This document shows, in pieces, positions 29,657 to 38,237 of a stretch of DNA of 64,000 bases. A program made the position numbers and the translations under genes. This stretch comes from Burkholderiales bacterium. GTDB taxonomy: Bacteria > Pseudomonadota > Gammaproteobacteria > Burkholderiales > Burkholderiaceae_E. The notes beneath the pieces are model-generated. The model had not been told where the DNA came from, searched no databases, and saw only the letters and a program-made list of their open reading frames with translations. The first letter of the stretch is position 1, and every line of letters starts with the position of its first letter. The stretch lies in assembly GCA_026399875.1 (NCBI GenBank), contig JAPLQF010000011.1, positions 1-64,000 on the forward strand, in the 5' to 3' direction.

Positions 29657-30445
29657 TCAGGCGTTCGGGTCGCCCGTTGCGCGACGCCGAACACCGACCT
29701 CGCCGCTGATGATCCGCTCGGACGGCGATCCGGCGGCACGTTCGATGATCAGTGCGCCGTCGTCATCAACGCCCAATGCCCGCGCCGGCTCGCGTTGGCC
29801 GTCGGGGCGCAGCAGATCGATCGGATGACCGGCCAGCATGTCAAGGCGTCGCCAGTGTTTCAAAAATGGGGTCAGACCCCGTTTTTCGAATTCGACGAAA
29901 GCCGCGCAGATCGCCGCGCCGAATTCCTGCGCGAGCGGCACTCGCGCCGGCACCGACGCGCCATCGAAGAAGGCGGTCACCGGCTGGCCGAGATCGGCCG
30001 ATGCGGGCGCAGCAGCCAGATTGAGCCCACAGCCGACCACCGTGCGAGTCAGATGACCGATATGCCGGACCTCGACCAGAATGCCGCCGGCCTTGGCCAC
30101 ACCGCCGGGCACCTCGCAGTAGAGGTCGTTGGGCCATTTCAGCAGCGGGCGGGCGCCGTGACCGGCGAGCACCTGCGCGAGCGCGACGCCGACCGCCAGC
30201 GGAAAGCCGAGTTGCAACACGCGGTTTGCGTTGCGTTCGATCGCCACCGAAAACGTGAGCGTCTGCTGTCCGTCGGACAACCACTGACGCCCGTTTCGGC
30301 CCCGACCAGCGAGCTGACGGTCGGCCAGCAGGAGGATCGGCGGCCTCGACGCCTGCTGGTCGGCCGGCGCAAGCAGGGGTCGACGCATCAGCTCGAGACT
30401 GGTCGAATCGATGCTGTCGATGTGCTCGAAATCGGGCGGGGCCAT
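29657..30445 (-). CDS. birA: Biotin–[acetyl-CoA-carboxylase] ligase, monofunctional
   Basis: A 262-aa biotin protein ligase. The biotinyl-AMP loop GRGRNGRQW is at residues 47-55 and KWPND at 103-107; AGGILVE and VVGCGLNL follow. It lacks the N-terminal DNA-binding domain of E. coli BirA, so it should not act as a repressor. It would biotinylate carboxyl-carrier domains, including Lys631 of the large carboxylase at 44.4-49.9 kb. Its stop is directly adjacent to the ABC ATPase stop. A 25-bp palindrome at 29862-29886 is embedded in frame and encodes KRGLTPFL. Confidence 0.92.
   Translation of the reverse strand: MAPPDFEHIDSIDSTSLELMRRPLLAPADQQASRPPILLLADRQLAGRGRNGRQWLSDGQQTLTFSVAIERNANRVLQLGFPLAVGVALAQVLAGHGARPLLKWPNDLYCEVPGGVAKAGGILVEVRHIGHLTRTVVGCGLNLAAAPASADLGQPVTAFFDGASVPARVPLAQEFGAAICAAFVEFEKRGLTPFLKHWRRLDMLAGHPIDLLRPDGQREPARALGVDDDGALIIERAAGSPSERIISGEVGVRRRATGDPNA
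29862..29886. repeat. Palindrome of the GGGGTC-A-GACCCC repeat type inside birA
   Basis: Arms aaaaatggggtc (29862-29873) and gaccccgttttt (29875-29886) flank a single A. They pair over 12 bp with one G·T wobble. The A-rich and T-rich outer parts with a GGGGTC core resemble a dispersed palindromic motif found in many proteobacterial genomes. It lies wholly within the birA coding frame. Confidence 0.85.
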
Positions 30446-38204: not shown

Positions 38205-38237
38205 GAACTTTGATCCTGGCTGGCAGGATCAAAGTTC
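38205..38237. repeat. Perfect 14-bp inverted repeat with 5-bp loop
   Basis: gaactttgatcctg (38205-38218) and caggatcaaagttc (38224-38237) are exact inverse complements around gctgg. It lies between the NIPSNAP remnant (start 38061) and the end of rlpA (38277), both on the minus strand. It could be a factor-dependent terminator, an operator or a mobile-element end; it lacks a U-run. Confidence 0.9.

Follow-up and report, generated by a model that had tools for sequence, protein, structure and literature searches.

The window, by which we mean the whole 64,000-nucleotide stretch of DNA analysed here, carries at 29657..30445 on the minus strand the gene for biotin--[acetyl-CoA-carboxylase] ligase, birA, an open reading frame of 262 aa with PF03099, PF02237 and TIGR00121 (birA_ligase, 115.5 bits at a cut-off of 83.1). 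Inside this gene lies a 25-bp palindrome, AAAAATGGGGTCAGACCCCGTTTTT, at 29862..29886 (no strand assigned), in which 11 of the 12 arm positions pair. On the birA strand it reads AAAAACGGGGTCTGACCCCATTTTT, and its codons AAA CGG GGT CTG ACC CCA TTT TT(G) give K-R-G-L-T-P-F-L once the next base is included. An earlier note on this DNA had described a near-perfect 25-bp palindrome in birA read as KRGLTPFL, and the sequence, coordinates, translation and gene name it gave are all correct. The palindrome was followed up by sequence, by whole-genome pattern searches and by a codon alignment with four close species and six further congeners. Its 13-bp core, GGGGTCAGACCCC (29868..29880, likewise unstranded), is identical in birA of all five close species (G000, the genome of this bacterium, and G001-G004).

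The shape of the palindrome is unremarkable in itself: when the window was shuffled 20 times by single bases, nine sites pairing at 11 of 12 arm positions turned up, or about 0.45 for each 64-kb window, and palindromicity alone was therefore discarded as evidence. Two palindromes of this strength, with 12-base arms, are present in the window itself. The second, around 38221, belongs to a near-perfect, terminator-like inverted repeat, AACTTTGATCCTGgctggCAGGATCAAAGTT, at 38207-38237. Recurrence, unlike palindromicity alone, is exceptional for the birA palindrome. We found three copies of GGGGTC(A/T)GACCCC in the G000 genome (4.01 Mb, 46 contigs) and none of the reversed control. The A/T-flanked form AAWYGGGGTCWGACCCCRWTT occurs twice exactly and a third time with one mismatch, where 1.5e-5 exact copies and 9e-4 copies at up to one mismatch are expected; these expectations are flattering because the consensus for the flanks was derived with copies, these included, already in view. 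The reversed control of the flanked pattern gave no match in 11 genomes, even at three mismatches.

All three 13-mer copies in G000 lie inside genes and are read in a common frame, x-R-G-L-T-P. Besides birA, these genes are prpE, for propionate--CoA ligase (L001, TIGR02316), where the palindrome encodes part of ...MLNRGLTPFSS..., and the type II secretion gene gspF (L003, TIGR02120), where the peptide is ...LRDRGLTPISV.... An exact search of viral_contigs for the 21-mer AATCGGGGTCTGACCCCATTT, as a possible phage source, returned no matches.

Native codons at the palindrome sites

BirA proteins of the congeners G001-G004 are 85-93% identical to that of G000, and within these five species the palindrome occupies the same codons in birA (5/5), gspF (5/5) and prpE (4/4, a prpE ortholog not having been found in G004). 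A 22-mer, AATCGGGGTCTGACCCCATTTT, is common to birA of G001 and G004 and to prpE of G000-G003, although the two genes are not homologous. A single source for the birA and prpE copies is well supported. A further BirA, 93% identical to that of the window, comes from CAMCXH010000010.1 (L118), a MAG titled Bordetella parapertussis; as its neighbours are uncultured Burkholderiales MAGs, this title is probably a mislabel.

In congeners outside this clade all three sites align without gaps and with the same spacing: R-[DS]-G-[LV]-x-P-[WF]-[LI] in birA (six of six, a seventh fragment of 58 residues from G008 being left out), D-R-x-L-x-x-F in prpE (six of six) and [ED]-R-G-L-T-P-[IV] in gspF (seven of seven). 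These congeners spell the sites with ordinary GC-rich codons, and their BirA encodes G-L-x-P-(F/W)-L at the codons of the palindrome. The alignments thus indicate that part of the palindrome peptide is native and that its DNA spelling is not. The changes within R-G-L-T-P of gspF are without exception synonymous. The clade has an asparagine in PrpE (AAT, from the flank of the repeat) where each of the six congeners has an aspartate, and in BirA the R-D of the congeners (R-S in one) has become K-R or N-R. These clade-specific residue changes are the ones dictated by the repeat.

No length was added at the target in birA, prpE or gspF (six, six and seven congeners), so that the insertion by which transposition is recognized was not found. 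Unchanged length and the codons of the congeners together argue for replacement rather than insertion. The earlier note had read the palindrome as accommodated without lengthening the protein, which the gapless alignment in all six usable birA homologs from outside the close clade bears out, and had offered conversion of the native codons as one origin. Replacement fits these alignments, and a conversion-like mechanism is what we infer from it. The same note had set against its reading the prospect of birA homologs with the same amino acids in non-palindromic codons and of a genome free of other copies; the homologs do carry a related motif in non-palindromic codons, and other copies exist.

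The degree to which the native sites could have guided the repeat differs among the genes. Congener codons match the 21-mer at 13-15 of 21 positions in gspF, 9-14 in prpE and 8-10 in birA, the last a level that 1 to 12% of background sites also reach. The birA acceptor hardly resembles the 21-mer, which makes DNA homology a weak guide for this gene. The closest relatives of the five-species clade with an empty site have about 55% BirA identity and, as there is no nearer empty-site sister, the replaced codons are deduced from distant congeners.

Half-units and the transposase gene

The 13-mer occurs in 17 of 61 genomes (that of this bacterium and 60 others of the order), in up to 75 copies, with 14 to 75 palindromes each in G009, G038, G057 and G047. 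Its flanked form AWWNGGGGTCWGACCCCNWWT was found in nine of the 61 and accounts for all 14 palindromes of G009. Judged by eye, without formal gene calling, the palindromes of G009 and G038 lie mostly between genes or at gene ends, in agreement with the earlier view of a dispersed type that usually sits between genes. In G047, with 75 copies in the genome, palindromes of the form GGGGTC(A/T)GACCC are arrayed head to tail with a 13-base spacing (L031 at C2:397529, and L102).

Half of the palindrome is also found alone. The half-unit AWYGGGGTCAGA was counted 11 times in G000 (once in the reversed control), between 9 and 11 times per genome in G001-G004, eight times in G007, 14 times in G009 and once in G011, and not at all in G005, G006 and G010; G008 was left out of this count. 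The 11 sites in G000, whose coding status was taken from open reading frames and codon-position G+C and not from a gene caller, comprise the three in-gene palindromes, one site at the transposase gene, four intergenic sites, two in genes and one (L284) probably just upstream of a start. Among the G000 clade, intergenic units are mostly half-units of the type GGGGTCAGATGA, and the compact A/T-flanked palindrome was found in genes only, which speaks against the reading of a dispersed repeat. One intergenic half-unit appears to occupy a single orthologous site in G000-G004 and G011 (L335, L341, L344, L346, L349 and L350, with neighbouring sequence close to cgattgggaggatcaattggcactc), which suggests old, vertically kept copies.

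Several further sites within genes were observed. In G000, a half-unit AATCGGGGTCAGATC at C15:77914-77925 (L334) lies in dnaA (TIGR00362), is read N-R-G-Q-I-S and is either a look-alike or a further in-gene copy; another half-unit (L333) is within the gene of a NAD-binding protein. A variant palindrome, AAAGAGGGTCTGACCCTGTTT, occurs in the type III glutamine synthetase gene of G000 (L285, C18:94506-94526) and of G004 (L289), that at L285 encoding K-E-G-L-T-L-F, close to the K-R-G-L-T-P-F of birA. AAATGGCATCTGACCCCAATT, in an arylsulfatase-like gene of G007 (L295, C42:330-350; PF00884; K-W-H-L-T-P-I), is possibly another in-gene copy, as may be L033 of G060, in what is presumably a Sel1 repeat protein gene.

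G000 has a single Y1_Tnp gene (PF01797), whose best match is the REP-associated tyrosine transposase family NF047646 (REP_Tyr_transpos). Scores against this family fall just below its cut-off of 80 bits in G000 (78.8), G001 (79.4), G002 (76.2) and G003 (78.3), are also below it in G060 (77.8), G057 (67.1) and G038 (63.9), and exceed it in G009 (88.1) and G007 (86.5). The 3' end of the G000 gene is formed by AACCGGGGTCAGATC, with TCTGACCCCGATTATT downstream; AACCGGGGTCAGATC and TCATCTGACCCCGATTATT, in this 3' end and the stretch that follows, are half-units of the palindrome, and a similar arrangement is present at the 3' end of the transposase gene in G001-G003 and G007. We inspected 30 Y1 loci, 23 of them with a usable open reading frame; at ten of the 23, GGGGTCAGA lies no more than 700 bp away (20 sites in total at an expectation of about 0.03 per locus), and 13 have none. 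Copies are on the 3' side only in G000-G003, G007, G009 and G038, and inverted half-units stand on both sides of the Y1 gene in G057 and G060 (L078, L069). Full palindromes lie directly past the only Y1 gene of G009 (two of its 14) and of G038 (one).

Other observations speak against a link to the transposase. G047 has two Y1 genes, and around the one examined no member of its 75 palindromes comes as close as 700 bp; in G004 (770 contigs) half-units are present and no Y1 gene was detected. A tree of the transposases, which did not group those with the half-unit, was uninformative (five changes, a count as low being reached in 25 of 500 shuffles, and a single very long branch). From the proximity of half-units to these genes, we infer that the transposase may be involved in the spread of the palindrome.

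Template switching, chance and selection

Quasi-palindrome correction, in which a polymerase switches template at a native imperfect inverted repeat (e.g. CGCGGCCTGACCCCG) and copies one arm onto the other with no mobile element, is a process described in passages of PMC8604942. It fits gspF exactly: several congeners have the native codons CGC GGC CTG ACC CCG where G001 has CGG GGT CTG ACC CCG, and both changes are in the left arm and complementary to the untouched right arm, which makes this the best rival explanation for gspF. As a general account we consider it unlikely, as it leaves unexplained the A/T-rich flanks and 22-mer common to birA and prpE, the use of rarer codons in the right arm (CCA, TTT and TTG, with a usage of 0.07, 0.26 and 0.08) and the match to the repeat adjacent to the transposase.

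Chance matches and codon drift at proteins that natively contain R-G-L-T-P, with copies causally unlinked to each other and to the transposase, are quite unlikely overall and for birA and prpE already disfavoured. The bare 13-mer GGGGTCNGACCCC is mildly over-represented in G000 (three seen, 1.7 expected from base composition and 0.58 with an A/T centre) and was set aside as weak evidence, a GLTP frame is a tendency of random matches within GC-rich genes, and the sites in dnaA, the NAD-binding protein and glutamine synthetase show that in-gene look-alikes occur; all this speaks for drift. The excess of A/T-flanked copies and their empty reversed control speak against it, and so does codon usage. 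Based on 31 open reading frames of the window (14,936 codons), the DNA strings have, for the amino acids they encode, a probability of 4e-6 to 8e-6 in birA, 1e-4 in prpE and 7e-5 to 5e-4 in gspF, which makes codon drift a poor account of birA and prpE and a possible one of gspF.

The earlier note had also proposed a selected stem in the mRNA. Either DNA strand can form the hairpin (z -2.3 and -3.4), a stem-loop capacity that REP elements also have. The RNA fold of the palindrome exceeds that of shuffled sequence mildly in birA (z -2.19) and not in prpE (-0.85) or gspF (-0.61). Terminator-like matches on the birA strand number one, against 0.6 expected. Third-position conservation at the site is unexceptional, equally conserved windows numbering 21 of 622 in prpE and 89 of 397 in gspF, and excess conservation as a sign of selection was not found in these two genes. 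In birA, the 21-base invariant run at the core is the second longest in the 321 bases compared.

A selected site within genes, be it a regulator operator, a nucleoid or replication site or an intragenic terminator, would accord with the two-strand hairpin, the terminator-like match and a core invariant across five species, yet it is very improbable given that there are only three full sites, every one in a gene, that RNA folding is weak and conservation not above the gene background in prpE and gspF, that flanks differ among species and that the site is absent from G005, G006 and G010. The palindrome is probably carried now as passive coding sequence, and the proposed mRNA stem is not supported.

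Relation to known repeats and proposed origin

The closest known systems are the REP/RAYT (TnpA-REP) REPtrons, which, in passages of PMC2817692 and PMC8266576, share with the repeat studied here a short, hairpin-capable, dispersed palindrome, a copy number varying between relatives and half-units next to a gene for a Y1 HuH tyrosine transposase. The same passages mention perfect-palindrome REPs. Here, in contrast, there is no GT(A/G)G head, there are three palindromes and about eight half-units, and the copies in question are within genes. REP elements are defined by a GT(A/G)G tetranucleotide beside the palindrome (in passages of PMC2817692). By eye, birA, prpE and gspF have none within six bases of the core, and none was seen in excerpts of 25 bases from the half-units next to the transposase gene in G000-G003 and G007; a GTGG about eight bases from the core in gspF is part of that gene's own codons. 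The repeat resembles a REP/REPIN system and may function as one, but because this tetranucleotide is missing we do not file it as REP and call it at most REP-like and RAYT-associated. REP elements also have many dispersed copies, most of them extragenic; G000 has three palindromes, all in genes, and 11 occurrences of AWYGGGGTCAGA, next to the 14 to 75 palindromes of G009, G038, G057 and G047.

REPINs also consist of two inverted half-units and, on losing the sequence between their REPs, become one long palindrome resembling the compact form found here (parts of PMC3116915); here the halves have no spacer and no GTAG, and mobility is putative. Intragenic REPs of the GTAG and CGTC families and Rickettsia RPE, likewise palindromic repeats in the reading frames of named genes, appear in passages of PMC3733652 as insertions or interruptions, whereas here codons are exchanged and the gene keeps its length. 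The coding palindromes treated in parts of PMC6649704, from mitochondria of Nematomorpha, are also perfect inverted repeats encoding conserved protein segments; they are mitochondrial and up to 284 bp long, and not a short repeat shared by unrelated genes and a transposase locus. In-place codon replacement by a REP-type repeat is not described in the passages on intragenic REPs compared. Neither GGGGTCAGACCCC nor GGGGTCTGACCCC was found in the open-access literature, searches there for GGGGTCAGA, TCTGACCCC, GGGTCAGACCC or GGGTCTGACCC gave nothing related among the matches listed, judged by title and start of abstract, and neither GGGGTC nor GACCCC occurs in the main text of PMC3733652 or PMC6006769.

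Taken as a whole, we think it probable that the palindrome in birA represents one copy of a RAYT-associated, REP-like repeat of a non-GTAG kind, which overwrote native codons in the ancestor of the clade. The half-unit of this repeat, an (A/T)-rich flank with GGGGTCAGA, would be the one that marks the surroundings of RAYT genes in this bacterium and its relatives. This repeat would have overwritten about seven to eight codons of birA in place in an ancestor common to five or more species, gene length remaining unchanged, and a sister copy would have done likewise in prpE. gspF was probably overwritten by a third copy; taken alone, this gene could also reflect quasi-palindrome correction or drift. 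Overwriting may have been tolerated because the sense-strand reading x-R-G-L-T-P-F/I resembles what the sites already encoded, and the proteins are apparently unbroken by the replacement of codons.

Mechanisms by which REP-type repeats disseminate are called poorly understood in passages of PMC8266576. Single-stranded repeat DNA processed by RAYT, or recombination with an existing copy, may have supplied a strand that annealed to codons matching it in part and that replication or repair then fixed, in a manner that would be conversion-like as opposed to transposition. A broader and more tentative idea, which we regard as doubtful, is that this transposase-linked repeat spreads by overwriting, its single-stranded DNA annealing to look-alike codons (native R-G-L-T-P-F/I) and exchanging them base for base.

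Codon replacement at constant length points to a conversion-like route instead of insertion. If overwriting is true, a mobile repeat would colonize core genes without insertion, protein motifs would act as its landing sites, and K/N-R in BirA and the change of aspartate to asparagine in PrpE would be its mutational footprint. Such a repeat could rewrite conserved residues of core enzymes, leaving clustered multi-codon changes of the kind usually taken for ordinary divergence.
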